Assembly (NCBI GenBank): GCA_903843305.1
Contig: CAIMPI010000021.1
Location: forward strand, 1-64,000
Reading direction: 5' to 3'
Source: an uncultured Chlorobiaceae bacterium
GTDB lineage: Bacteria > Bacteroidota > Chlorobiia > Chlorobiales > Chlorobiaceae
DNA length: 64,000 bases
Shown: positions 3,168 through 35,624 of the stretch, piece after piece
How positions within the stretch are numbered: the stretch's first letter is position 1
Layout: each line of letters starts with the position of its first letter
The notes under the pieces: model-generated
Databases searched by the model: none
The model's input: only the letters and a program-made list of their open reading frames with translations
Told to the model about the DNA's origin: nothing
Made by a program: the position numbers and the translations under genes

Positions 3168-5000
3168 TTATTCAATGTTATAGACCATGTTAAGGGCTTT
3201 ATAAACATTCTCTATTTTTTCGGCATAACTTGATATAATTACTTCGCGTTTGAGTTTCATTGTTGGGGTCATTTGACCGTTTTCAATCGTGAATGGCGTA
3301 TCAACAAGCAGAAACTTGCGTACTTTCTCGTGCGTTGCCAGTTGTCGTGAAACGGTGCGCAGAAGTTTTTCAAAAATCTGCAGAACATTTTGATTTTCAA
3401 TCAACTCTTTGTTGGTTTCAGCTTTTATACCTTCTGATGCAGCAAATTCTCTCAATTTGCTAAATTCCGGTACAATAAGGGCAATCAGAAATGGCCGTTT
3501 TTCACCGATTACAATGACTTGTTCAATAAATGGACTATCAGCAATCAAGTTCTCAATAGGCATAGGTGCAATATTTTTCCCGCCCGAAGTGACGATAATA
3601 TGTTTTTTTCGACCGGTTATCTTCAGATAACCCTCCTTATCTATCTCTCCAATATCCCCGGAGAAGAACCATCCGTCCTTGATAACTTTACGGGTAGATT
3701 CTTCATCCATCCAGTATCCCTTCATGATATTAGGTCCCTTGAGCAGGATTTCTCCATCATCGGCAATTCTGACCTCGACGTTATTAACCGCCTGTCCAAC
3801 GGTACCGTACTTGATCTTTTCTGGCCTGTTGACATGGGTGACGGGTGATGTTTCAGTTAGGCCAAATCCCTCAAGAATGTTTATGTCAAGCGCATGAAAA
3901 AATTCGCCGATCTTTTGCGGTAAAGCAGCCCCGCCCGAAACAAAATAGCGCAGTCGTCCGCCAAGCTTGTTCTTTATTTTTTTATAGACAAGCTTTTCTG
4001 CTAAAGCGTACTGTATGGAGAGTATTTTTGGTACGCTTCCTTTATTATCGATTTTTCTGTGATACTGTTCTCCCGTTTTTAACGCCCAGTAAAATATTTT
4101 CTGCTTTATGACGCTTTGGGTTGAAATCTGCTTGAGTATACTCATTTTGATACGATCAAACAGCCTTGGAACAGTAAAGATGATGGTCGGTCTGGCTTCT
4201 GTCATATTCAGTGAAATCGTCTCAATGCTCTCTGCCAGATAGATGCTGGCTCCGCAGGCAAAAAGCAGGTAATAGCCGCCTGTGCGTTCATAAGCATGAG
4301 AGAGAGGCAGAAATGAGAGCCCACAGTCAGAATCATCAAGGTGTATAACTGAAGAGCAGGATTTGACATTTTCACAGAGGTTGCGGTGTGTAAGCATCAC
4401 TCCTTTTGGAAGCCCTGTCGTTCCAGAAGTGTAGATAATGGTGGCAACATCTTCAGATTCCACAGGGGCTCGGTCAAGAAACCATGGTTTTTCTTCAAGA
4501 CATTTTTTCCCGATTGCCTTTGCCTGGTCAAGGTCAAGAACATCTTCAATGGCTTCTTCAAGGCGGTTCATGACCACAACAAGAGTTAACTCTGGCAGAT
4601 TTTGCCAGATTGAGAGGATTTTACCTAGTTGAAGCATGTTTGAGACAATGACAGCCTTTGCGCTGCAGTTGTTGAGAACATATTCAATCTGGCTGGAAGG
4701 CAAAGAAGGATAGAGAGGCACATTGATTGCGCCAAGATTCATAATAGCCATATCGGCAAGGTACCATCCCGGTCTGTTTTCCGAAAGTATGGCAATCCGA
4801 TCTTTTGACTTTACACCATTGTGTTTTAGAAACGCTCCAAAATAACGCACATCCTCCTCAAACACACGATAAGAGATGGGTGCATATACTCCATTAATCT
4901 TTCTTGCAAATGGAAACTTAATCTCATTTTCCCTGTAATGGTTAAAAACAGATGCAAAAAGTTCCGGCAGTGTCTGAAAGTCAGGATTGATAAGCCCCAT
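3168..5000 (-). CDS. AMP-forming long-chain acyl-CoA synthetase
   Basis: This member of the ANL adenylation superfamily is expected to activate fatty acids to acyl-CoA via acyl-AMP. The P-loop motif [20 protein letters not shown], the [12 protein letters not shown] motif, the [11 protein letters not shown] region with [11 protein letters not shown], and the hinge [17 protein letters not shown] are all visible. At 610 residues it fits the FadD15-like bacterial long-chain class, which resembles the eukaryotic enzymes. Signature motifs such as [14 protein letters not shown] support the long-chain type. It stands alone on the minus strand between mutY and the divergent sugar cluster. The exact chain-length specificity cannot be read from the sequence. 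Confidence 0.92.
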
Positions 5001-5178: not shown

Positions 5179-6243
5179 ATGCAGATGACGAAAAAATCAG
5201 GTCTTTCATGGACAGGCTATCTTGGTCTTGGTCTTGGTATTGTCCTGATAGTCTATCTTTTCAGTCAACTAGACCTTAAGCGATCGGCTGATCTTATTTC
5301 ATCAATTGGTTTTTTATCGGCATTTATTGTTTTGCCTTTTCTTGCGCTGCATCTTTTAGAAACCTTAGCATGGTCAAGAGTCTTTCCGCGGAGCATAATC
5401 ACAATACCGTTTTTCAAACTTCTGAAAATACAGGTTATCGCCGAAACTGTGTCCATGACGCTTCCTGCCGGAGTGGCTATCGGTGAACCTCTTCGTCCTT
5501 TTCTTTGTAGCCGCTTTATAGGGGTTCCACTTCCCTCTGGGGTTGCAAGCGTTGCTGTGCGAAAGCTCATGCTCGGCGTAGCTCAGGGGCTTTATACTAT
5601 TATTGGTTCTATAGCAGGTTTTTCACTTCTTCAGGTTGTTTCTGTCCGAATTCTTGGTTTTGAGGGGCTTGGCTATCTTATGGTTGGTGCAGGCATAGTG
5701 GTTTTTCTGCTTTTTCTCTTTTTTCTCCTTTTGCTGCTCAACGGAAAAGCAGCTCAAAATGTTCACAAATTTTTGATGCTTGTTCCCATCAAGAGAGTAA
5801 AGAGATGGTTACTTGTAAAAGAGTCAGGTTTTCTTGATACGGATGAGGAGCTGAAGAGTTACCGCGGTTCTTATACCAATAGGTTGCTTCCGGTATTGGT
5901 TATTTATCTTCTTGCTTGGTCAACACTTGCTATTGAGAGTTATGTTATATTGAGGCTTTTGGGTATTGATATCTCTTTTTTACAGGTGTTTACCATTGAT
6001 ATCGCTCTTACAATGCTTCGTTCTCTCTTTTTTTTCATTCCTTCTGGACTTGGTGTACAGGATCTTGGTTACCTGGCGTTTTTTCAGGCTGTCGGGATGC
6101 ATGATGTTCTTGCTTATGGCGGTGCATTTGTGTTGTTGAGGCGTTTAAAGGAGGTCCTCTGGTATTCTTTCGGTTACTCCATAATGTTTTTTTCTGGAGT
6201 TCACCTGCGAGATGTAGAAGGAGTAAGCAAAGGAGGATCGTGA
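5179..6243 (+). CDS. LPG-synthase transmembrane-like / flippase-like domain membrane protein
   Basis: This is an integral membrane protein with about eight hydrophobic segments, matching the family formerly annotated as lysylphosphatidylglycerol synthase TM region (UPF0104/YbhN-like). It contains an ETVSMTLPAGVAIGEPLRPF segment and a C-terminal FFIPSGLGVQDLGYLAFFQ motif typical of that family. No aminoacyl-transferase domain is attached, so it is not an LPG synthase. The frame opens at a TTG at 5122; the ATG codons at 5179 and 5185 are more likely starts. It precedes and overlaps a GT-B-like gene at the head of the Kdn-type sugar cluster, which suggests a role in lipid-linked sugar or envelope lipid transport. 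That role is inferred from context. Confidence 0.75.
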   Translation: MQMTKKSGLSWTGYLGLGLGIVLIVYLFSQLDLKRSADLISSIGFLSAFIVLPFLALHLLETLAWSRVFPRSIITIPFFKLLKIQVIAETVSMTLPAGVAIGEPLRPFLCSRFIGVPLPSGVASVAVRKLMLGVAQGLYTIIGSIAGFSLLQVVSVRILGFEGLGYLMVGAGIVVFLLFLFFLLLLLNGKAAQNVHKFLMLVPIKRVKRWLLVKESGFLDTDEELKSYRGSYTNRLLPVLVIYLLAWSTLAIESYVILRLLGIDISFLQVFTIDIALTMLRSLFFFIPSGLGVQDLGYLAFFQAVGMHDVLAYGGAFVLLRRLKEVLWYSFGYSIMFFSGVHLRDVEGVSKGGS

Positions 6244-7196
6244 AGAAAAAAATTTTATTTATATGTGGTTCGATGAATCAGACTACCCAGATGCATCAGA
6301 TTGCAGGGTGGCTGACCGATTATGAGCAATATTTTTCTCCTTTTTTCAGCGATGGTCTGCTCGGAGTTGCCAGTGATGCAGGGTTGCTTGAATTTACCAT
6401 TATGGGTCGCAAGCGATCGGAACGTACCCTTGACTATCTCTCTTCTCATCATCTGAGGCTTGATATTGGTGGTTTTGCACACGCCTATGATCTTGTGGTG
6501 ACCTGTACGGATCTCATTGTGCCAAAACATATTCGAAGCAATAAAATTGTGCTGGTACAAGAGGGAATGACAGAGCCCGAAACCATTCTCTACCATCTTG
6601 CAAGGAACTTCCAGTGGATTCCTCGCTGGATTGCCGGTACTGCTGCTACTGGGTTATCCGATGCTTATGAGAAGTTTTGTGTTGCCAGCGAAGGATATCG
6701 CGAACTCTTTATCCGGAAAGGGGTGACTCCCGCCAAAATCGAAGTGACCAGTATTCCGAACTTTGACAATTGCGAGCAGTACCTTCAGAATAATTTTAAA
6801 CATCATAATTACGTTCTTGTCTGTACGTCAGATAATCGAGAAACCTTTATTTATGAAAATCGCCGGAAAAATATTGAAAAATATCTTGAAATGGCAGGTG
6901 ATCACCAGCTTCTTTTCAAGCTTCATCCCAATGAAAATGCTGAAAGGGCAATCAGAGAAATTGAACGCTATGCTCCAGACAGCCTTGTGTTCAGTGAAGG
7001 TAGAACTGAAGAAATGATTGCCAACTCACGGATGTTGATTGCGCAGTTTTCATCGACAATTTTTGTTGGTTCTGCCCTGAACAAGGAAGTACATTGTGGG
7101 TTGGATCCTGAGGTGTTAAAGTTACTGACACCGCTCCAGAATAAATCTGCAGCAAAAAATATTGCGAATGTCTGCCAGCAGTTGATTGATGGCTGA
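6240..7196 (+). CDS. GT-B-like protein of the surface-sugar cluster
   Basis: This 318-residue soluble protein begins with KKILFICGSMNQTTQMHQIA, a beta-strand and loop typical of the N-terminal half of GT-B enzymes. The C-terminal half contains LLFKLHPNEN and SRMLIAQFSSTIFVGSALNK, which resembles CDP-glycerol transferase, polysialyltransferase or UDP-GlcNAc-2-epimerase-like folds (His-Pro turn, then a Ser-Ser loop near the nucleotide site). The substrate cannot be named. The GTG start overlaps the upstream stop (GTGA) and has a strong AGGAGG site seven bases upstream. Its place between a flippase-like protein and a CMP-sugar synthetase suggests transfer or processing of an acidic sugar; a CMP-sugar donor is an inference. 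Confidence 0.6.
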   Translation: MKKKILFICGSMNQTTQMHQIAGWLTDYEQYFSPFFSDGLLGVASDAGLLEFTIMGRKRSERTLDYLSSHHLRLDIGGFAHAYDLVVTCTDLIVPKHIRSNKIVLVQEGMTEPETILYHLARNFQWIPRWIAGTAATGLSDAYEKFCVASEGYRELFIRKGVTPAKIEVTSIPNFDNCEQYLQNNFKHHNYVLVCTSDNRETFIYENRRKNIEKYLEMAGDHQLLFKLHPNENAERAIREIERYAPDSLVFSEGRTEEMIANSRMLIAQFSSTIFVGSALNKEVHCGLDPEVLKLLTPLQNKSAAKNIANVCQQLIDG

Positions 7197-7218
7197 ACTA
7201 AAACGTAACTGATTTTTA

Positions 7219-7932
7219 ATGTACACGGTAGCAATTATTCCTGCCAGAGGCGGGTCAAAGGGACTGAAAAAGAAAAATATCTATCCTGTAGCAGGAAAAC
7301 CCCTGATCGCCTGGACGATTCAACAGGCGTTAGCCTCAGCTTCCATCGATAAAGTGTTTGTTTCAACGGATAATACGATCATTTCCGGCGTTTCAAAGGA
7401 ATATGGTGCGGAGGTGATTGAGCGTCCATTGAAACTTTCCGGTGACAAGGTGAGCTCCGAATCGGCTATCCTTCACGCTATTGGAGTTATCGAATTGGAG
7501 TATGAAATGCCCGTAAGCACGATCGTATTCTTGCAGGCGACCTCACCTTTACGAAAATCTGGTGATATTGATGCAGCGATAGATGTTTTTCGTCGTGAAG
7601 GAGCTGATTCGCTAATTTCGGTGACTAAAGCCGACGACCTTACCTTGTGGGAATCCCGAGAAGGGAAGTGGATGAGTGTCAACTTTGATTACCGTAATCG
7701 GGGAATGCGTCAGGATCGGCCAACACAATTCATCGAAAATGGCTCAATCTATATTTTTTCACCAGAAACTCTTTTCTCCTTTGACAACAGGATTGGCGAA
7801 AAACTTTCGGTCTATGAGATGGAGTTTTGGCAAACGTGGGAGATTGATACTCTCGAAGAAATAGATTTAATTGAGTACTACCTTTATAAAAAAAACCTGG
7901 CCGTCCAGGATGCAAACCAACAGAACCTTTAG
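7219..7932 (+). CDS. NeuA/PseF-type CMP-sugar synthetase (cytidylyltransferase)
   Basis: The protein activates a 2-keto-3-deoxy acidic sugar with CTP to give a CMP-sugar. The nucleotide-binding signature [16 protein letters not shown] is at the very N-terminus and is the NeuA form (RGGSKG...KN), not the KdsB form. [15 protein letters not shown], with an LQ.TSPLR motif, and the [11 protein letters not shown] loop follow. At 237 residues it is a single-domain enzyme without the C-terminal phosphatase of some NeuA proteins. It lies 12 bases before the KdnB-like gene, so its substrate is probably Kdo8N or a related amino-keto acid; an ordinary nonulosonic acid is the alternative. Confidence 0.85.
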
Positions 7933-7944
7933 ATTACTGTTTTT

Positions 7945-9075
7945 ATGAATTTCTTTTTATCCACCGATCTTGTTATCGGGGTTAATGAAGCGCTGAACCT
8001 GAATGGGCATCTGGCACAGTTGTCAGTTAAGAAGCCCGGTATCATTTACGATGCCAATGTAGCAGGCAGTCTCTATTTTCAAGACGTTCTGAGGAACCTT
8101 ACCTCAGAATACAAAGATGCAGTATTGTATTGCAATGAATTCGGGGGCGAACCGACTTATTCTCATCTCGAAAGTGTGGCGGAATTTTTCCGGGGGAATT
8201 CGCCGGAAATTATTGTTGCCATAGGTGGAGGCAGTACACTTGACCTTGGAAAGGGAGTTGCTCTTTTAATGACCAACGCAGTTCCAGCACTTTCACTCAA
8301 GGGCTTTCCTTCAGGAGTGAACGATCCATTACCACTTATTACCGTACCGTCTCTGCTGGGCAGCGGTGCCGAGGTAAGTTTTAATGCGGTATTTATTGAT
8401 GAGGCCGAGGGCCGTAAACTTGGCATTAACAGCCGAAAAAATTTTCCCAAAAAAGCAGTAATCGACCCGCAGCTTTCCATGACAGCCCCTTTTGAAAGCG
8501 TTATTGCTTCAGCCATGGATAGCCTTGTCCATTGCGTTGATAGTTTCGGTTCAGTAAAGCATACGGCGTTGAGCCGGATTTTTGCCATTGAAGGATTCCA
8601 GCGCACTTTTTATGCTTTACAGCAGAATCAGCTCGATCGGGCTGAGTCGCGGCTTGATCTTGCGATAGGCAGTGTCTGTGGTACTGTGGCCCTTATGAAC
8701 TCCGGTGATGGTCCAACGAATGGTTTTGCCTACTATCTTGGCGTGAAACATCGTGTGCCTCACGGTCTTGCTGGAGCAATTTTTCTCAAGGAGGTTATGC
8801 GTTACAACCATCTTCATGGCTATGAAAAGTATGCCCTTCTCAATCCTATGCGCTCGACCCCCTCACCAAAAGAGGCAACGGCTGAACTGCTTGAGGAGAT
8901 GGATGAACTTTACAGGCAGCTTCAGATTCCAACACTTGTTCCTTATGGATATGGCAAGGGTAATGCTACAGAGTTTGCACATAATGCCTCAGAAGCCCTG
9001 AAAGGCTCATTTTCGGGCAATCCCGTTGAATTTACCGAAGAATCTGCACGGGAAGTTGTTTTTCAATTAACATAA
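7945..9075 (+). CDS. kdnB: KdnB-like iron-dependent alcohol dehydrogenase (Kdo C8 oxidase)
   Basis: This is a group III metal-dependent alcohol dehydrogenase. The NAD(P)-binding motif VAIGGGSTLDLGKG lies near residue 90, and metal ligands are expected in SAMDSLVHCVDSF and HRVPHGLAG. In Shewanella, KdnB oxidises C8 of Kdo to the aldehyde that KdnA then transaminates to 8-amino-3,8-dideoxy-octulosonate. The assignment here rests mainly on the immediately adjacent KdnA-like gene (18-base gap) and on the preceding CMP-sugar synthetase, together with the family fit. The length of 376 residues is usual. A different sugar alcohol substrate remains possible. Confidence 0.72.
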   Translation: MNFFLSTDLVIGVNEALNLNGHLAQLSVKKPGIIYDANVAGSLYFQDVLRNLTSEYKDAVLYCNEFGGEPTYSHLESVAEFFRGNSPEIIVAIGGGSTLDLGKGVALLMTNAVPALSLKGFPSGVNDPLPLITVPSLLGSGAEVSFNAVFIDEAEGRKLGINSRKNFPKKAVIDPQLSMTAPFESVIASAMDSLVHCVDSFGSVKHTALSRIFAIEGFQRTFYALQQNQLDRAESRLDLAIGSVCGTVALMNSGDGPTNGFAYYLGVKHRVPHGLAGAIFLKEVMRYNHLHGYEKYALLNPMRSTPSPKEATAELLEEMDELYRQLQIPTLVPYGYGKGNATEFAHNASEALKGSFSGNPVEFTEESAREVVFQLT

Positions 9076-9093
9076 AAGAACAGGATACTTATT

Positions 9094-10251
9094 ATGGCTG
9101 GAGCAGAACTCATCGGTCGTGAAGAACTAGCTGAAATACAGGAACTTTTCAGCAGGGAAAAAGTCAATTTATACCGTTACGGCGGTGGTAATTATAAAGC
9201 AAGAGAGTTTGAGGAGAAATTTGCGTCATGGATGGGCGTCAAGTATGCTCATGCTGTTTCTTCAGGTACAGCAGCAATTCATTGTGCACTTGCTGGTGCC
9301 GGGATTGGAGTTGGTGATGAGGTCATTACAACTGCATGGACGTTCATAGCTCCTGTGGAAGTGATTAGTGCCCTTGGTGCAATACCTGTGCCGGTTGAGC
9401 TTGATGAAACCTATCATCTTGATCCGGTAGAAGTTGAAAAGGCTATTACTCCAGCGACGAAAGCTGTTGTGGCTATTCCGATGTGGGCTTCACCGAAAAT
9501 GGATGAGCTGTCGGCACTCTGCATAAAGCATCGCCTGACGCTGATCGAGGATGCTGCACAGGCGCTTGGAGCTTCATATAAGGGACGGAAACTCGGCACC
9601 TTTGGCAGTGTTGCTTCCTTCTCGTTTGATGCTGGCAAAACGCTCCACACTGGTGAAGGCGGCATTATTGTGACCAACGACAAGGAAATCTACGATCGTG
9701 CGGCCGAGTTCTCCGACCATGGTCACATGCACCTGCCCGGTCTTCCGAGGGGTAAAGATCCCAGAAGATCAAAAGGGTTGAATTTACGTCTCAGCGAAGT
9801 GACTGCGGCAATCGGTCTGGCCCAGCTTGCCAAAATTGATACCATTCTTTCGGCATCAAGGGAGAACAAGAAAAAAATCAAGGATGCAATCCGTCATCTC
9901 GATAACATTATTCTCAGGCCTTTCAGTGACGAAGCTGGGTCTCAGGGAGACACCCTTATTTTCAGGGTCAGAAATCGTGAAGCGGCACTGCAGTTTGAAG
10001 CACATTTGACGGAGCATGGCTTTGGCACCAAGATTTTGCCAGAAGCACTTGACTGGCATTTTGCAGGAGTTTGGGGCCATCTTCTTGGTGAGTATGACCA
10101 GTACCGTGACGCTGATCTTGAAGCGCTCTGGCCAAAAACCGGTATCATGCTGCGTAGCAGTATCTGCCTTAATATTCCTGTGCTGATGGATGATGTTACA
10201 ATTGAAAAACTTGTTACAGCGATTGTTACTGGTGCGGAAAAGATAGGATAG
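9094..10251 (+). CDS. kdnA: KdnA-like PLP aminotransferase (Kdo8N synthesis)
   Basis: This is a DegT/DnrJ/EryC1/StrS-family sugar aminotransferase of 385 residues. The internal-aldimine lysine is in SFDAGKTLHTGEGG, and VSSGTAAIHCAL, EDAAQALGASYKGRKLG and FSDHGH match the Shewanella KdnA pattern, including GLNLRLSEVTAAIGLAQL followed by KIDTI and ENKKKIKDA. KdnA transfers an amino group from glutamate to C8 of oxidised Kdo. The ATG at 9094 has an AACAGGA site. It is the last gene of the cluster and is followed by a strong terminator at 10270-10300. The recognised family resemblance makes KdnA the best call. Confidence 0.8.
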   Translation: MAGAELIGREELAEIQELFSREKVNLYRYGGGNYKAREFEEKFASWMGVKYAHAVSSGTAAIHCALAGAGIGVGDEVITTAWTFIAPVEVISALGAIPVPVELDETYHLDPVEVEKAITPATKAVVAIPMWASPKMDELSALCIKHRLTLIEDAAQALGASYKGRKLGTFGSVASFSFDAGKTLHTGEGGIIVTNDKEIYDRAAEFSDHGHMHLPGLPRGKDPRRSKGLNLRLSEVTAAIGLAQLAKIDTILSASRENKKKIKDAIRHLDNIILRPFSDEAGSQGDTLIFRVRNREAALQFEAHLTEHGFGTKILPEALDWHFAGVWGHLLGEYDQYRDADLEALWPKTGIMLRSSICLNIPVLMDDVTIEKLVTAIVTGAEKIG

Positions 10252-10269
10252 TTTTGTGGTGTATGAATG

Positions 10270-10300
10270 AAAAAAGCCTGCATTTTGCAGGCTTTTTTCA
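10270..10300. terminator. Bidirectional terminator between kdnA-like gene and tRNA-Cys
   Basis: The hairpin AAAAAGCCTGCA-TTT-TGCAGGCTTTTTT has a 12-bp stem flanked by A-runs on one side and T-runs on the other. It can therefore terminate the sugar cluster on the plus strand and the tRNA-Cys transcript on the minus strand. Confidence 0.85.
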
Positions 10301-10304
10301 TTAG

Positions 10305-10375
10305 AGGCGAAGAGCGGACTCGAACCGCTGTAGAAGGTTTTGCAGACCTCTGCCTGACCACTCGGCCACTTCGCC
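10305..10375 (-). tRNA. tRNA-Cys (GCA)
   Basis: Read on the minus strand, the cloverleaf has acceptor stem GGCGAAG/CTTCGCC, a D-arm GCC...GGC, an anticodon stem GAGGT/ACCTT with loop CTGCAAA (anticodon GCA), and a T-arm GCGGTTCGAGTCCGC. The discriminator base is U, as expected for cysteine tRNA. The 3' CCA is not encoded. The terminator at 10270-10300 follows immediately. Confidence 0.95.
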
Positions 10376-11157: not shown

Positions 11158-11625
11158 ATGAAAGTACTGACAAAAAAAACTGATTACGCTATACGGGCAC
11201 TCTTGATGCTGGGAGCAAAACGAGGCAGTTATGTTTCAGCCAAGGCGATTGCGGTTGAGCAGGATATGCCCTATCAATTTCTTCGTGGTGTGTTGCAGGA
11301 GATGATTCGTCACGATTTAATTGTGTCGAAGGAGGGGGTTCAGGGTGGGTTTATGCTGGAAAAAGATCCTGATGAAATTGGTGTCAAGCAGTTGATTGAG
11401 ATTTTTCAGGGGACGGTGCAAGTGTCGGAGTGCATGTTTCGCAAGCAGATTTGTACCAATCGTTCGCGATGTGTACTTCGTCACGAAATCATGCGGATTG
11501 AGCATGTGGTTAATAACGAATTTGAACAGGTAACTATAGGGAAGCTTCTTCGGAAGCTCCAAGCAACAAATACCCTGATGCCAGCGTTAAATACTGTAGA
11601 AGGGCTGGCATCCATAACGCAATAA
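11158..11625 (+). CDS. Rrf2-family transcriptional regulator with Fe-S type cysteines
   Basis: This 155-residue winged-helix regulator starts MKVLTKKTDYAIRALLML, the classic Rrf2 N-terminus, and has the recognition region ISKEGVQGGFML-like (here VSKEGVQGGFMLEKD). Three cysteines in SECMFRKQICTNRSRCVLR have the spacing expected for an Fe-S cluster in IscR/NsrR-type members. It is ten bases upstream of the ferredoxin gene and near hcp, so it probably senses NO or redox stress and controls that pair. It could be an NsrR-like repressor, but general Rrf2 is the safe call. Confidence 0.88.
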   Translation: MKVLTKKTDYAIRALLMLGAKRGSYVSAKAIAVEQDMPYQFLRGVLQEMIRHDLIVSKEGVQGGFMLEKDPDEIGVKQLIEIFQGTVQVSECMFRKQICTNRSRCVLRHEIMRIEHVVNNEFEQVTIGKLLRKLQATNTLMPALNTVEGLASITQ

Positions 11626-11634
11626 ACTGGTGCC

Positions 11635-12519
11635 ATGTATATGATAAAACGAGAGATTATTACAATTGATGAGAATCGATGCTCTGGTTGTGGGGATTGT
11701 ATTCCGGGATGTCTGGAGGGTGCTTTGCAGGTTATTGATGGAAAGGCCCGGTTGATCAGTGATCTGTTTTGCGATGGACTTGGGGCATGTCTTGGTCATT
11801 GTCCGACCGGGGCGATGAAAATAGAGACTCGTGAGGCTGAACCCTATAATGAAAAACGGGTGATGCATGAGAGTATTGTTCATGGAGGCTCGAATGTTAT
11901 TGCCGCACATCTGCGTCATCTCGCCGATCATGGCCAGAGCGTTTTTTTGCAGCAGGCATTTGAATATCTCGAAGAATACTCTATTGCCAATCCTCTGAAA
12001 AATGAGACAAGTGCAACAACTGTCGATCAGAATGCTCATACCGCGCACCATCATCATGAGGGAGGATGTCCGGGAAGTCGGATGATGGATTTCGGTGAAA
12101 AGGGAAGCAGTAGTGTTGCGCCTTCTGTGGGTGCTGGGAGTGCCCTGCGTCAATGGCCGATTCAGCTTCATCTGGTTTCACCACAAGCCCCCTATTTCCA
12201 TGGTTCAGATTTGTTGCTTGCTGCTGATTGTACCGCCTTTGCAGTCGGGGAATTCCATGGGTTGTTCATGCGTGGAAAAAGTCTCGCTATTGCCTGCCCT
12301 AAACTTGATTCCGATATGGGGATTTATGTTGAAAAGCTTACTGCAATGATTGATATGGGTTGTCTTAATACCATTACAGTTGCAATTATGGAGGTTCCCT
12401 GTTGTGGTGGGTTGATGTCGATTGTGGCAGAGGCGCTTCGCAATGCGCAGCGCAAGGTGCCGGTGAAAAAGATGGTTGTCAGCCTGCAGGGTCAGATACT
12501 GTCGGAGGAGTGGGTGTAG
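11635..12519 (+). CDS. 4Fe-4S ferredoxin-domain protein associated with Hcp
   Basis: The N-terminus carries two 4Fe-4S motifs: CSGCGDCIPGC and, after a gap, CDGLGACLGHCPTGA. A long C-terminal domain follows (about residues 60-294) with a His-rich stretch HTAHHHHEGGCPGSR and then LLLAADCTAFAVGEFH and EVPCCGGL. This architecture is recurrent beside hcp in anaerobes, where the protein is thought to pass electrons to hybrid cluster protein. The start MYMIKRE offers ATG codons at 11635 and 11641. The broken TPR gene follows before hcp. The role of the C-terminal domain is unknown. Confidence 0.8.
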   Translation: MYMIKREIITIDENRCSGCGDCIPGCLEGALQVIDGKARLISDLFCDGLGACLGHCPTGAMKIETREAEPYNEKRVMHESIVHGGSNVIAAHLRHLADHGQSVFLQQAFEYLEEYSIANPLKNETSATTVDQNAHTAHHHHEGGCPGSRMMDFGEKGSSSVAPSVGAGSALRQWPIQLHLVSPQAPYFHGSDLLLAADCTAFAVGEFHGLFMRGKSLAIACPKLDSDMGIYVEKLTAMIDMGCLNTITVAIMEVPCCGGLMSIVAEALRNAQRKVPVKKMVVSLQGQILSEEWV

Positions 12520-12540
12520 GACAATAGACAATGGACAATT
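12520..12540. repeat. Three tandem GACAAT-type heptamers
   Basis: GACAATA, GACAATG and GACAATT follow one another directly after the ferredoxin stop codon and just before the start of the TPR pseudogene. They are short direct repeats of unknown function. Confidence 0.6.
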
Positions 12541-12549
12541 GGAAGAGAT

Positions 12550-12969
12550 ATGCTGAATGATGCGATGGGTGGTTATCGGGGTACGGCATGTGAGATAAGG
12601 AGGATTATTCTGGAGCATCTGGAGAATTCGGAGGCTTGGTATAACAGGGGCAATGATCGTGCAAGTTGCTGAGAGTTTGATACGGCGGTCAGTGATTATA
12701 CGATGGCGATTCAACTTGGTCTTCGGTTCCGTGAAGCTGTTAATGCCTATGGCAATCGTGGTATGGCAAGAGTTGAAACGGGTGACCTTGATGGCTCAAT
12801 TGAGGATTTCAGCGAGATCATTGAACGAAAACCAAAAAACATCTGGATGTTACGTACAGCATATCATAACAGTGCATTACTGAGGCAGAAACAAAGCGAC
12901 AATCATGGCGCAATGGACGATCGGAATGCTGCACTGCGATTGTCTGGTAGTTCAACCATTGCTTGTTGA
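12550..12969 (+). pseudogene. TPR-repeat protein gene with in-frame TGA
   Basis: An ATG at 12550 with a GGAAGAG site opens a frame of 40 codons that ends at TGA 12670-12672, and the same frame continues open to 12969. The joined translation contains three TPR units: AWYNRGNDRASC-stop-EFDTAVSDYTMAIQL, then NAYGNRGMARVETGDLDGSIEDF, then HNSALLRQKQSDNHGAMDD. The TGA falls where the TPR consensus expects a Leu-Gly turn, so it is a disabling substitution or small change within a once-intact gene. The downstream part alone (ATG 12703, 88 residues) might still be expressed. It interrupts the ferredoxin-hcp pair. Confidence 0.75.
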
Positions 12970-13003
12970 GTGGGTGCTGGTCGCATCGATATATACGTCG
13001 GAC

Positions 13004-13042
13004 GCCGAGTAGCGCGAAGCGCATATCGAGGCGCTACTCGGC
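13004..13042. repeat. REP-like inverted repeat before hcp
   Basis: GCCGAGTAGCGC (13004-13015) and GCGCTACTCGGC (13031-13042) form a perfect 12-bp inverted repeat with a 15-base loop. It is much more GC-rich than its surroundings. It lacks a following T-run, so it looks like a REP-type element rather than a terminator. Confidence 0.6.
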
Positions 13043-13070
13043 ATCCAAAACAAGATATTAAAAAACTGTG

Positions 13071-13087
13071 TCTCTTTCATTGAGAGA
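13071..13087. promoter_or_regulatory. Dyad in the hcp 5' region
   Basis: TCTCT (13071-13075) and AGAGA (13083-13087) form a short symmetric element about 50 bases before the hcp start. It could be a regulator binding site, but the arms are only five bases long. Confidence 0.25.
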
Positions 13088-13135
13088 ACAGGAATGAGAT
13101 ACATTTGTTCAATTAACAAACAAGAGGAGAAAACG

Positions 13136-14764
13136 ATGGGAATGTCTTGTAACCAATGTCAGGAAAGCATTCATGGTACCGGATGCAGAGCGAGAGGGGT
13201 GTGCGGAAAGGATGAATTGACAGCAAAACTTCAGGATGTACTTGTTTATGCAACTGAAGGGCTTGCACTTTCGGCTGAACAACTGCCTGAGGGCATATCA
13301 AGAAAAGTTGGCCAGCTTATCAGTGAGTCGCTTTTTGTCACTGTTACCAATACCAACTTTGATGAAGAAGCGATTGTCGTGCAGATACTGAAAACCTTGG
13401 GATTGCGTGATGAACTGAATGCAAGGCTGGCTTGCAAGCCCAGCCATGATGCCGCCCTGTGGAGTTGCACTTCAAAGGAGGAATTTCTTTCGAAAGCCCT
13501 CTCTGTCGGTCTCGACAGCCTCAGTGAAAACGAAGACCTTCGATCCCTGAAAAGCCTTGTGCTCTTTGGAATCAAGGGGCTCGCAGCCTATACCGATCAT
13601 GCAGCCGTGCTCGGCTATCACGATGATGATATCTATGCTTTTTACGTCAAAGGCCTTGCTGCATTGACTAAAGATCTTTCGGCTGACGAGCTGACCGCCC
13701 TCGTACTTGAAACCGGAGGCGTTGCCGTCAAGGCAATGGCGCTGCTCGACAAAGCAAACACTGAAACGTATGGTCATCCCGAGATTACCATGGTGAAAAC
13801 CGGTGTTGGCAAGAATCCGGGTATTCTGATTTCAGGTCATGACCTGCGTGATCTGGAGGATCTGCTCAAACAGACAGAGGGTACAGGTGTTGATGTCTAT
13901 ACCCACTGCGAAATGCTTCCGGCTCACTACTATCCCGCTTTCAAGAAATATTCTCATTTTGTCGGCAATTATGGTGGTTCCTGGTGGTCTCAGGACAAGG
14001 AATTTGAATCCTTCAATGGTCCGATTCTCATGACAACAAACTGTATTGTTCCGGTGCGTGAAGCGTATCGCAACAGGATGTTTACTTCTGGCATAGCGGG
14101 TTATCCAGGGCTGAAACATATTCCCGCGAGACCACAGGGTGGTCAGAAAGATTTTTCCGTGCTTGTTGCCCTTGCCAAAACCTGTAAATCGCCAGTAGAG
14201 CTTGAAAATGGCCAGATTTTAGGGGGCTTTGCGCATAATCAGGTACTTGCGCTTGCCGACAAGGTCGTTGATGCTGTCAAGTCCGGAGCGGTAAAGCGTT
14301 TTGTCGTGATGGCTGGTTGTGATGGTCGACATGCTTCACGCCGTTATTATACCGATGTTGCAGCGGCATTGCCGAACGATACCATCATCCTGACTGCAGG
14401 GTGTGCAAAGTACCGTTACAACAAGCTTGAGCTTGGCGATATCGGTGGAATTCCCCGTGTACTTGATGCCGGTCAGTGCAACGACTCCTACTCGCTTGCC
14501 GTGATTGCCCTGAAACTCAAGGAGGTCTTTGCACTTGAGGATATTAACGACCTACCGATCTCTTTTGACATTGCCTGGTATGAGCAGAAGGCAGTGACGG
14601 TATTGCTTGCTTTGCTCTATCTTGGAGTTAAAGGTATTCGCCTCGGACCAACACTTCCTGAATTTCTGACACCAAACGTAACTGCCATACTTGTTGAAAA
14701 GTTTGATATCAAGCCGATAGGAACTGTAGAGACCGACATTGAAGCAATAATGGCTGGTGCATAA
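13136..14764 (+). CDS. hcp: Hybrid cluster protein (hydroxylamine reductase / NO reductase)
   Basis: Hcp reduces NO or hydroxylamine and protects anaerobes from nitrosative stress. The N-terminal cluster ligands are in [21 protein letters not shown]. Hybrid-cluster ligands are in [27 protein letters not shown] and [11 protein letters not shown], and SWWSQ and the final domain match the family. The ATG at 13136 is preferred over the frame opening at 13094 because an AGAGGAGA ribosome-binding site lies just upstream and the Cys motif follows at once, giving 542 residues, the usual class length. Upstream Rrf2 and ferredoxin genes form the expected functional group. A TCTCTttcattgAGAGA dyad at 13071-13087 could be its operator. 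Confidence 0.96.
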
Positions 14765-30944: not shown

Positions 30945-33011
30945 ATGCGTAGAAAAAGTCTGCTTCTCATTATTGTTGTCTTGGGAAGCACTATGCCGGT
31001 TTTTGCCGTAAATAATGATAAATCTGCTCCTGCATTAACGGTTGTTACTCTCCAGCCAACTGCTGCGCAGGAGGAGGTCGGAAAATATATCAGTCAAGCT
31101 CTTTTACAGAAACACTATAGAAAGATATCGGTTAATGACTCTCTTTCTCAGCAGATATTTAATCGCTATATCGACAATCTTGATGGTAACAAAAGTTATT
31201 TTGTAGCAAGTGAGGTTGAAAGTCTCCGTAAAATTTATGGGAGGCGTATTGATGACGAATTTCTTGCTGGCAAATCAAATGCTGGATTTGCTATTTATAA
31301 TTTTTTTCTTAAACGGGCTAAAGAAAAAATGCGGTACATGAAGGCAACTGCCGATACCGTGCATTTCAATTTTTCAATACCAGAAACCATTGACCTTGAT
31401 CACAAAGCTGATCCTTGGCCAGCCGACAGGCGTCAGCTTACCGATCTATGGAAAAAAGAGCTTAAATACCAGTGGATCAACCTGAAATATTCTGGCGAAA
31501 GTAGTAAGACTATTCGGGGAGCCCTTGAAAAAACCTTTACCAGTCGCCTGAATATTCTGAACCGTCAGAAGCCGGAAGATGCTTTTCAAGCGTATACTTA
31601 TGCTCTGACGACCTCATTCGATCCGCATACAAGTTATCTCTCGCCTGACGAGTATGAAAACTTTCAAATTGATATGAGTCGTTCACTTGAAGGAATTGGT
31701 GCCAAACTTCAGACAGAAAGCGAATATACTGTTGTTAATGAAGTTATTCCTGGGGGACCTGCATTCAAAAGTAGTTTACTGAAAAAAGGAGATAAAATTA
31801 TCGGTGTTGGTCAGGGAAAAGTTTCTGAGATTGTTGATGTAACCGGTTGGAGAATAAATGATGTTGTAAAACTGATCCGTGGAAGAAAAAACACCTTTGT
31901 TCGCCTTAAAATCCTGCCCGCAAGCCAGGGAGGCAGGGGGCCAGAAAAAATCGTTCAACTCTTGAGGGAAAAGATCAATCTGGAGGAGCAGGCGGCGAAA
32001 AAAAGCATTATTCTGCAAAATGGTCAAAAAATAGGTGTTATAACCATACCATCATTTTACCTTGATTTTGAAGGTCAACAGCAGAATACCGGCAATTATA
32101 ATAGTACAAGTCGAGATGTAACACGGATTCTTAACGAACTGAATGCGGAGCATGTAAGCGGTATCGTTATTGATCTTCGCGATAATGGAGGAGGTTCGCT
32201 TGAAGAGTCTGTCAATGTCACCGGATTATTTATTCCAACTGGTCCAGTGGTGCAGATAAGCAATTCAACAGGCGAAAAAATGGTACTCAGGGACGAAGAT
32301 CGACGGATACTCTATAATGGCCCCCTTGCTGTGCTTGTCAACCGATACAGCGCTTCGGCATCAGAAATTTTTGCCGCTGCAATTCAAGATTATAGCCGAG
32401 GTGTTATCATCGGCGAGAGAACGTTCGGGAAAGGAAGTGTACAAAGTATCATCAAACTTTCAAGGCCATTTACCTTTTTTGGCAAGAAACCTGAACTTGG
32501 TCAACTCAAGCTGACTATGGCAAAGTTTTTCCGAATTTCTGGAGGCAGTACGCAACATAGAGGGGTTGTACCAGATATCTCCATGCCATCCATGATTGAT
32601 ACATCAATTGTTGGCGAGGATACCTATACCAGCAGTCTTCCCTGGAGTACCATTTCCCCATCATTTTATCGGCCAACCGCAGAGATAAGTAAGGAAGAGA
32701 TTGGAGTACTTCGGCAGAAACAGCAGGAACGGTCATTGAAAAGCCACCAGTACCAAGCTTATCTGCATGATCTTAATATCCTTAACAGGATCAGAAAAAA
32801 AAGGACGATATCGCTCCAGGATTCATCCTTTAAATCAGAAACTGAAACCATAAAACATATTGAAGGTCTATGGGTTCAAGAGCAGGATTCAACGAAAAAC
32901 CTGAGTAAAGATGTACTGCTCAACCAGTCGGCCGCAGTTGTTTCGGATATAGCGGAGCTTAAAACTGTGCAACGGCAAACGGTTATCCGAACGTTGCCCT
33001 CGTTGAACTAA
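30945..33011 (+). CDS. prc: Tail-specific protease Prc/CtpA (copy 1)
   Basis: This exported S41 serine protease degrades periplasmic proteins with non-polar C-termini. A signal peptide (RKSLLLIIVVLGSTMPVFA) is followed by an N-terminal helical domain with [17 protein letters not shown], a PDZ domain ([33 protein letters not shown]), and the S41 core with the nucleophile in [17 protein letters not shown] and the lysine in [14 protein letters not shown] Prc C-terminal domain follows. The size of 688 residues fits the E. coli Prc group. A near-identical paralogue lies 556 bases downstream, which marks a tandem duplication. Confidence 0.95.
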   Translation: MRRKSLLLIIVVLGSTMPVFAVNNDKSAPALTVVTLQPTAAQEEVGKYISQALLQKHYRKISVNDSLSQQIFNRYIDNLDGNKSYFVASEVESLRKIYGRRIDDEFLAGKSNAGFAIYNFFLKRAKEKMRYMKATADTVHFNFSIPETIDLDHKADPWPADRRQLTDLWKKELKYQWINLKYSGESSKTIRGALEKTFTSRLNILNRQKPEDAFQAYTYALTTSFDPHTSYLSPDEYENFQIDMSRSLEGIGAKLQTESEYTVVNEVIPGGPAFKSSLLKKGDKIIGVGQGKVSEIVDVTGWRINDVVKLIRGRKNTFVRLKILPASQGGRGPEKIVQLLREKINLEEQAAKKSIILQNGQKIGVITIPSFYLDFEGQQQNTGNYNSTSRDVTRILNELNAEHVSGIVIDLRDNGGGSLEESVNVTGLFIPTGPVVQISNSTGEKMVLRDEDRRILYNGPLAVLVNRYSASASEIFAAAIQDYSRGVIIGERTFGKGSVQSIIKLSRPFTFFGKKPELGQLKLTMAKFFRISGGSTQHRGVVPDISMPSMIDTSIVGEDTYTSSLPWSTISPSFYRPTAEISKEEIGVLRQKQQERSLKSHQYQAYLHDLNILNRIRKKRTISLQDSSFKSETETIKHIEGLWVQEQDSTKNLSKDVLLNQSAAVVSDIAELKTVQRQTVIRTLPSLN

Positions 33012-33566: not shown

Positions 33567-35624
33567 ATGGTTGCAAAAAAAGTAGTTCTCTTTATGGTTG
33601 CATTGGTAAGTGCATCCCCGGTTCTTGCCATAAAATCTACTCTGACTCAGTCGGCGGTTACCCTCAGACCGACAGCGTCAGAGACCGAGGCTGGTAAATA
33701 TATCAGTCAATACCTGTTGCAGAACCATTATCGAAAGGTGGCGGTTAACGATTCTCTTTCGCAGCAGATCTTCAATCGCTATATAGACAATCTTGATGGT
33801 AGTAAAAGCTATTTTTTTGCAAGTGATATTGAATACCTCCGGCGGATGTACGGAAACAAGATTGATGACGAATTTCTGGCAGGTAAGGCAACTGCCGGGT
33901 TTGAAATCTATAACCTTTTTTTAAAACGGGCCAAAGAAAAAATGCGGTATATGAAAGCGGCTGCTGATACCGTTCATTTTAACTTTTCAACACCAGAAAC
34001 TCTTGATCTTGACCGCAAGTCCAACCCCTGGTCTGTCGACAAGCAACTGCTCACTGATCTTTGGAGAAAAGAGCTAAAATACCAGTGGCTCAACCTTAAG
34101 TATTCAGGGAAATCTAACCTGGCCATTCGAAAAGAGCTTGCAAAAAGCTTTACAAGCAGACTGAACCTTCTGAACCGTCAGAAGCCTGATGATGCTTTTC
34201 AGGCTTATACTTATGCGCTGACAACATCGTTTGATCCTCATACAAGCTATTTTTCCCCAGATGAATATAAAAACTTCCAGATCGACATGAGTCGTTCTCT
34301 TGAAGGAATTGGCGCCAAACTGCAGACCGAAGGAGAGTTTACAGTTATAAATGAGCTTATTCCTGGAGGGCCAGCATTCAATAGTAATCTTCTGAAAAAA
34401 GGGGATAAAATTATTGGTGTCGGTCAGGGGAGAAAAACAGAGATTGTTGATGTATCCGGTTGGAGAATCAATGATGTGGTTAAGCTTATCCGTGGCAAAA
34501 AAGGCACCATTGTTCGCCTGAAAATTCTTCCAGCAAGTCAGGGGGGACGTGGATCAGCAAAAGTAGTTCAACTCTTTCGGGACAAGGTCAATCTTCAGGA
34601 ACAGGCTGCAAAGAAAAGCATTGTCATGTTGAATGAACATAAAATCGGCGTTATCATTATTCCATCATTTTACCTTGATTTTGAAGGTGAGCAGCAGAAT
34701 ATCGGCAGTTACAACAGCACAAGTCGTGATGTGGCCCGTATTCTGGAAGAACTGAACGCTGAGCACGTTGAAGGTATTGTTATTGATCTTCGCGATAATG
34801 GTGGTGGGTCACTTGAAGAAGCGGTGAATGTTACTGGACTGTTTATTCCAAGCGGACCCGTCGTCCAGATCAGCAATTCAATCGGAGGAAAAACGGTACT
34901 CAATGATGAGGATAGTCGCGAACAATATGATGGACCACTTGCCGTTCTGGTTAACCGTTACAGCGCATCGGCATCTGAAATTTTCGCTGCAGCTATCCAG
35001 GATTATAGCCGTGGGGTTATCATCGGTGAGAGAACGTTCGGGAAAGGAACAGTTCAAAGTCTTATTCCACTAACACGGCCTGCTTCTGTTGAAAGAAAAC
35101 AGCCAGAACTTGGAGAGATAAAACTAACCATTGCAAAGTTTTACCGGGTTTCCGGAGGCAGCACGCAGCACAAAGGGGTTGAACCTGATATTAAGATGCC
35201 GTCCATGATCGATACCGCAAGGATTGGTGAAGATACCTATACCAGTAGTCTGCCCTGGAGCACTATTTCTCCATCACTTTATAAACCCACAGCCGAAATA
35301 AGTCCTGAAAGGATTGAACTGCTCCGTCAAAAATTTCAGGAACAATCATCAAAGAACCTGCTCTACCAGAGCTATCTTGATGATCTGAATACACTCGACA
35401 AGATCCGTAAAAAGAAGGCGGTATCCCTTCAGGATTCAGAGGTGAAATCGGAAACAGAGACGATAAAACAGATTGAAAAACGATGGGCTCTTGAGCAGGA
35501 TTCGACCAAAGATCTGAGTAAAGATGTGCTACTGAACCTTTCGGTAGCAGTTGTTGCAGATCTTGCAGACATTAAAGCTGGAGAAGCGCAACCGGATTCC
35601 CAGAAGCATCCATTGTCGCATTAA
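33567..35624 (+). CDS. prc: Tail-specific protease Prc/CtpA (copy 2)
   Basis: This paralogue follows copy 1 through every domain: signal peptide ([18 protein letters not shown]), [20 protein letters not shown] helical domain, PDZ ([33 protein letters not shown]), catalytic Ser in [17 protein letters not shown], and Lys in [13 protein letters not shown]. Differences cluster in the C-terminal domain and at the extreme ends, so both copies look active. Its 685 residues are full length. The last four bases overlap the convergent argH stop. Confidence 0.94.

Follow-up and report, generated by a model that had tools for sequence, protein, structure and literature searches.

A conserved Chlorobiaceae operon linking a Kdn-type oxidase/transaminase pair to CMP-sugar activation and transfer, with a probable role in a nonulosonate pathway

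The closest described systems modify or synthesize ulosonic acids. In Shewanella oneidensis, the 8-amino derivative (Kdo8N) of 3-deoxy-D-manno-oct-2-ulosonic acid (Kdo) is produced by a pathway comprising KdnA, KdnB and KdsB (Gattis 2013, as cited in PMC5125639). A phosphorylated NeuB route has a precedent in the Bacteroides synthase and phosphatase of 2-keto-3-deoxy-D-glycero-D-galacto-nononic acid 9-phosphate (KDN-9-P) (PMC6200933), and has been proposed in Leptospira from a NeuB-phosphatase fusion (PMC3438082). Here we describe an operon that resembles both systems, located at positions 5179-10251 of the window, by which we mean the whole 64,000-nucleotide stretch that was analyzed, contig C21 of a 2.59-Mb genome (completeness 99.9%). 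The nearest named contigs to the host belong to Chlorobiaceae, indicating a green sulfur bacterium. Five plus-strand open reading frames encode, in order, a flippase-like protein (PF03706), a glycosyltransferase (GT) with no Pfam family, a cytidine monophosphate (CMP)-sugar synthetase (CTP_transf_3), a KdnB-like iron-type alcohol dehydrogenase (FeADH) and a KdnA-like DegT aminotransferase dependent on pyridoxal phosphate (PLP). We consider it fairly likely that these genes form one half of a nonulosonate pathway, in which the sugar is modified, activated, transferred and flipped. Its product would be a terminally aminated KDN-type nonulosonate, a nine-carbon acid akin to sialic acid, carried on an envelope glycan. 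The operon and its flanking features are as follows:

5179..6243, plus strand: flippase-like integral membrane protein (LPG_synthase_TM, HpnL-like; PF03706, E 1e-26)
6240..7196, plus strand: glycosyltransferase with a GT-B fold and no family name, probably using a CMP-ulosonate, judged by fold model and motifs
7219..7932, plus strand: CMP-nonulosonate-type cytidylyltransferase, NeuA/PseF-like (PF02348, E 9.8e-24)
7945..9075, plus strand: KdnB-like FeADH, proposed terminal-carbon oxidase (Fe-ADH and ADH_Fe_C)
9094..10251, plus strand: KdnA-like DegT aminotransferase, proposed terminal-carbon transaminase, PLP lysine K182 by motif (best PDB match 5k8b)
10266..10302, usable on both strands: rho-independent terminator (RNA fold -24.2 kcal/mol, z -7.8 against shuffled sequences)
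3168..5000, minus strand: long-chain acyl-CoA synthetase, divergent neighbor (AMP-binding; pathway role putative)

The genes are closely packed: the first two share 4 nt, and the following gaps measure 22 nt (GT to synthetase), 12 nt (synthetase to KdnB) and 18 nt (KdnB to KdnA). The terminator hairpin is perfectly paired, carries T-runs on either strand and is faced by a convergent tRNA-Cys at 10304-10375, while consensus scans for promoters yielded no more matches than shuffled sequence. An earlier note on this DNA, made from the sequence alone, had described a tight five-gene block ending in a strong terminator, and the coordinates, spacing and hairpin all agree with that description.

Every green sulfur bacterium examined carries the five-gene operon. 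All five genes occur in unchanged order in each of the 19 genus loci mapped (58-98% identity), so the operon is no chance grouping, and the more complete named Chlorobiaceae contigs also carry them together. All 37 genus genomes have KdnA orthologues (80-97% identity), whereas the 24 other Chlorobiota have none, their DegT homologues reaching only 33-48% identity. KdnB is 71-98% identical across the genus, and both enzymes are intact in every mapped locus. The acyl-CoA synthetase adjoins the operon in nearly all genus loci. One assembly, G008, holds two full operon copies (L045, L046); it is 7% contaminated, and a mixed bin is likely.

The best PDB match of KdnA is Shewanella KdnA (5k8b, 44% identity, E 8e-81, next-best match 1.2e-44). 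In a tree with 13 other DegT enzymes, Chlorobiaceae KdnA falls into one clade with the KdnA of Shewanella, Syntrophales and Bacteroidota (support 100/100), within which it forms a separate, deep, long branch. Relative to the kdsB-linked KdnA lineages, 13 sites are fixed differently, including W82, P129, W131, A132, H185 and L319, which by motif position would lie near the PLP lysine K182 and the substrate loops that flank it. As separate observations, KdnA is widespread in marine Flavobacteriaceae (L073-L118) without an adjacent KdnB, with a KdnB-type FeADH elsewhere in the Flagellimonas genome (L214), and the deltaproteobacterial genome G066 apparently has two distinct FeADH-KdnA pairs (L209:500-3031 and L063:8597 onward).

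In the case of KdnB, the best PDB matches are ordinary FeADHs (98 bits), Shewanella KdnB (5k8c) scoring just 64 bits, and the Chlorobiaceae protein is no more similar to Shewanella KdnB than to other FeADHs. The Shewanella and Bacteroidota KdnB clade (100/99) excludes it, on a branch of length 2.6. Taken together, however, the KdnA-linked FeADHs split from 16 other FeADHs at 94/92, with long branches leaving the exact position of Chlorobiaceae KdnB unsure, and all of them, Chlorobiaceae included, have a tyrosine at the position of FucO H267. The metal-ligand set D, H, N, H and this Y267 are invariant in 15 Chlorobiaceae rows. An origin of KdnB from three separate FeADH lineages was considered and dropped, since the tree split and the common tyrosine argue for a single, broad group of KdnB-type enzymes in which Chlorobiaceae form a deep branch. 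The earlier claim that a Kdn-type pair is coupled here to a CMP-sugar synthetase, a GT-B protein and a flippase is thus borne out by the KdnA clade and the KdnB signature; its expectation that both enzymes would group with those of Shewanella holds for KdnA, although on a deep branch of its own, and fails for KdnB. Sequence comparison therefore identifies the pair as Kdn-type, with signs of altered specificity. Elsewhere, the genus member G015 encodes an FeADH 41% identical to Shewanella KdnB (L264:9729-10841) within an island (L264:6275-14294) that contains a NeuB (6275-7345) and a NeuA-like synthetase (13488-14294), so KdnB-type enzymes accompany NeuB in other settings too.

The operon departs from the Shewanella system in its synthetase and its gene context. 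By family models and PDB matches, the synthetase is closest to NeuA/PseF and not KdsB-like (best match 6ifd, a CMP-N-acetylneuraminic acid synthetase, 4.4e-36; KdsB just 1e-6). Outside Chlorobiota, according to a scan of GTDB genomes combined with gene maps, Shewanella has the order kdnA-kdnB-kdsB. In some Syntrophales and some other former Deltaproteobacteria, kdsB comes after kdnB-kdnA, and in some Bacteroidota it lies close to kdnA-kdnB. The known Kdo8N association thus carries kdsB, whereas in the Chlorobiaceae operon kdsB is not beside kdnA and kdnB. Instead, family searches, on which all gene counts for the host genome rest, recovered a separate and complete Kdo route: KdsA (C20:28588-29346, over cutoff) with KdsC1 immediately after it (C20:29463), KdsB (over cutoff) on C16, a contig other than that of the operon, and WaaA on C9.

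A second ulosonate route is represented by a NeuB-family protein of 290 amino acids without a SAF domain, hereafter NeuB290 (C33:80417-81286), directly preceded by a phosphatase, KdsC2 (C33:79862). The two genes are adjacent here and in five further genus loci. KdsC2 scores best with the KDN-9-P phosphatase model NF058599 (148.5 bits, below the cutoff of 180), ahead of the KdsC model (136.9), and is one of exactly two KdsC-type phosphatases in the genome. NeuB290 identity is 79-98% within the genus and 73-77% across families with different amination sets. Because the genome has exactly two CTP_transf_3 genes, one of which is KdsB, we infer by tight elimination that the operon synthetase serves the NeuB290 product. 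In gene content, this NeuB-family synthase, KdsC-type phosphatase and NeuA-type synthetase, with their putative substrates, resemble the Bacteroides thetaiotaomicron KDN pathway (KDN-9-P synthase, KDN-9-P phosphatase and CMP-KDN synthetase; BT1714/1713/1715 type), which in Chlorobiaceae is extended by the Kdn-type pair, a flippase and a new GT.

The GT has no match in Pfam or NCBIfam, and a search of its profile against PDB sequences returned nothing. Folding from genus sequences only gave an unusable model (pLDDT 54.9), which the addition of other families mended: the resulting AF2 model, from 20 sequences, has a pLDDT of 89.4 and a pTM of 0.87. Its Foldseek matches are GT-B proteins, with uridine diphosphate (UDP)-sugar 2-epimerases first, followed by TagF, a CMP-bound capsule synthase and a polysialyltransferase (5wc6 and 5wcn, E 1.3e-8 and 1.5e-8, respectively). 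The polysialyltransferase catalytic residues are Q41/Q44, E153 (EEG motif), H291 (HP motif) and S339-T340 (PMC5517516); bacterial sialyltransferases are characterized by D/E-D/E-G and HP motifs (PMC2169525), and beta-Kdo transferases also have the HP motif (PMC5517516). The GT presents Q14/Q17, Q107-E108-G109, H229-P230 and S/T at 271-273, the same order as in the polysialyltransferase, the correspondence being by motif order and not by superposition. The paired glutamines and the QEG and HPN motifs are invariant in 20 of 20 rows, as is S271. The likeness to GT38 polysialyltransferases and related sialyl and Kdo transferases thus lies in the GT-B fold and these ordered motifs, whereas the QEG in place of D/E-D/E-G, the UDP-sugar 2-epimerase as top fold match and the lack of a significant sequence match (one of 16 GT members matched the GT38 family PF07388, at E 0.13) set it outside that family. 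Epimerases also possess an HP-like stretch, so the motifs favor, but do not prove, a CMP-ulosonate donor. We regard the GT as probably a CMP-ulosonate-dependent, sialyltransferase-like member of a new GT-B family.

Across Chlorobiota, the GT tracks NeuB290, not Kdo. Among the 24 genomes outside the genus, 13 have both GT and NeuB290, one has NeuB290 alone (a genome 81% complete) and 10 have neither; the GT is therefore present in 13 of 14 genomes with NeuB290 and in 0 of 10 without it (Fisher p 5.6e-6, uncorrected for shared ancestry).

In other Chlorobiota families, the same GT belongs to a different gene set. In G049, G057 and G053, one run contains the GT, an SpsF-like cytidylyltransferase, the N and C halves of a transketolase, a class III aminotransferase, a short-chain dehydrogenase/reductase (SDR), KdsC2 and NeuB290 (GT to NeuB at L188:4221-11583, L189:4270-12299 and L190:4450-13401). 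In G041 and G038, the flippase, GT, SpsF, transketolase and aminotransferase genes are kept together, with SDR-KdsC-NeuB apart. The G041 run adjoins the same ribosomal-protein block (rplS-trmD-rimM-rpsP) and acyl-CoA synthetase as the window; this synthetase is also kept in G038 and G043, and its identity at the matching locus of other families is 54-59% (L192, L193, L197). A flippase orthologue (31-40% identity) lies next to the GT in most of these families. Of the 14 genomes outside Chlorobiaceae that have NeuB290, 11 carry the class III aminotransferase (78-100%); none of eight Chlorobiaceae carries it at orthologue level. The two arrangements share orthologous GT, KdsC2, NeuB290 and mostly flippase, and differ in synthetase and amination genes. 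Since KdnB, KdnA and the NeuA-like synthetase sit where relatives hold SpsF, transketolase, aminotransferase and SDR, we read this as an in-place swap, within an older NeuB pathway, of the amination and activation genes in Chlorobiaceae. The SpsF/transketolase/aminotransferase/SDR/KdsC/NeuB run is itself a nonulosonate pathway in its own right, apparently undescribed.

The flippase-like protein scores 89.9 bits with the HpnL model TIGR03476, below its cutoff. In many non-Chlorobiaceae Chlorobiota, an OlsE-like membrane protein of the ornithine lipid hydroxylase/sterol desaturase type lies directly beside NeuB290 (L188:3437-4213 by model; L191:2200-3042, L194:5800-6654 and L196:6631-7509 by likeness). 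Together, the flippase partner, the conserved acyl-CoA synthetase and this OlsE-like hydroxylase point weakly to a lipid acceptor. A literature search on an aminoglycosphingolipid of Chlorobium, considered as a possible product, found nothing. The lipooligosaccharide (LOS) of Chlorobaculum tepidum contains Kdo and has no O antigen, and the structure of its outer-membrane lipid was described in 2025 as not established (PMC12285230).

Gene content, conservation, co-occurrence and the swap are observations, whereas substrates, step order, acceptor and flipping are predicted. The synthesis half of the pathway would be encoded apart from the operon, at C33:79862-81286. NeuB290 would condense phosphoenolpyruvate with a phosphorylated hexose, mannose-6-phosphate being the simplest guess, to yield KDN-9-P, from which KdsC2 would take off the phosphate. 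KdnB would then oxidize the freed terminal CH2OH, and KdnA would transaminate the aldehyde to a 9-amino-9-deoxy-KDN-like zwitterion. The NeuA-like enzyme would produce the CMP sugar, on the cytoplasmic face the GT-B enzyme would transfer the sugar to a lipid-linked acceptor, and the product may cross the inner membrane with help from the PF03706 protein. The full proposal, that all Chlorobiaceae make a 9-amino-9-deoxy-KDN-type sugar on a membrane glycolipid or LOS through a new CMP-sugar transferase family, after a Kdn-type pair displaced the transketolase/aminotransferase set, is tentative, and we lean slightly away from expecting it to hold in every part. To our knowledge, no natural 9-amino nonulosonate is known; none appeared among the top titles and abstracts of a literature search, which is weak evidence of absence. 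The positively charged core sugar suggested earlier is too strong a claim, since the predicted product is zwitterionic.

Several observations weigh against this proposal. The only close characterized relative of KdnA acts on Kdo aldehyde, NeuB290 and KdsC2 lie outside the operon in Chlorobiaceae, and one genus genome (G023, 91% complete) lacks NeuB290. Neither amination set was found in two further genomes, G044 and G045 (95-96% complete), although both encode NeuB290 and the GT. The genomes behind the GT/NeuB290 co-occurrence counts are not independent of one another phylogenetically, the hexose substrate of NeuB290 is a guess, and the acceptor and flippase role are guessed from family membership. 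Moreover, the metal ligand H263 is replaced by asparagine in the KdnB of Chlorobiaceae alone, so its activity is uncertain. If KdnB were poor or inactive, the pair would be a relic and the operon would handle an unaminated nonulosonate. This substitution in 15 of 15 rows speaks for such a reading; the high identity of KdnB and KdnA across the genus and their intactness speak against it, and GldA-type FeADHs function with three protein ligands, which leaves it very improbable.

The earlier note had envisaged an amino-Kdo-like sugar, with KdnB and KdnA converting Kdo to 8-amino-Kdo as in Shewanella, the operon synthetase making CMP-Kdo8N and the GT adding it to the LOS core. The membership of KdnA in the KdnA clade and the Kdo in C. 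tepidum LOS are consistent with this, and a second, dedicated synthetase might serve Kdo8N. However, the pair lacks the adjacent kdsB of other lineages, the synthetase is NeuA-like, KdnB lies outside the Shewanella clade, the GT and locus are tied to NeuB290, and the NeuB290 product would be left without a synthetase. The gene set supports an aminated ulosonic acid on an envelope glycan, whereas Kdo as its substrate is unlikely, given also the separate Kdo route. Alternatively, KdnB and KdnA may act earlier and aminate a sugar precursor that NeuB then condenses, which the displaced aminotransferase/SDR/transketolase set may also do, so that all these families would make one identical sugar. 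A clean swap at one matching locus and the 73-77% identity of NeuB290 across families using different sets fit this idea, but relatives of the Kdn pair act on free ulosonate, the new set has no transketolase counterpart, and the presence of a KdsC-type phosphatase implies a terminal carbon that keeps its phosphate until condensation is over; we consider it rather improbable. Amination of a NeuB-derived ulosonate after condensation remains our preferred reading.

Two further features of the window were noted. An Rrf2-type regulator, a ferredoxin-type protein and a hybrid-cluster-protein-like gene lie consecutively at 11158-14764, by appearance an ordinary nitrosative-stress set. At 30945-33011 and 33567-35624, genes for two large exported proteins that resemble each other, of 688 and 685 aa, flank a small methyltransferase-like gene in what looks to be a local duplication.

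No description of this conserved surface-sugar pathway was found in the literature searched. The analysis also brings to light a GT-B family that has no name and, among other Chlorobiota, a nonulosonate cluster with transketolase and aminotransferase genes that seems not to have been described. Judging by this operon, an oxidase/transaminase pair of the Kdn type may act on a sugar derived from NeuB, which makes Kdo8N annotation by similarity alone unsafe. For the organisms themselves, the prediction is an envelope sugar conserved throughout this family of obligately photolithotrophic green sulfur bacteria.

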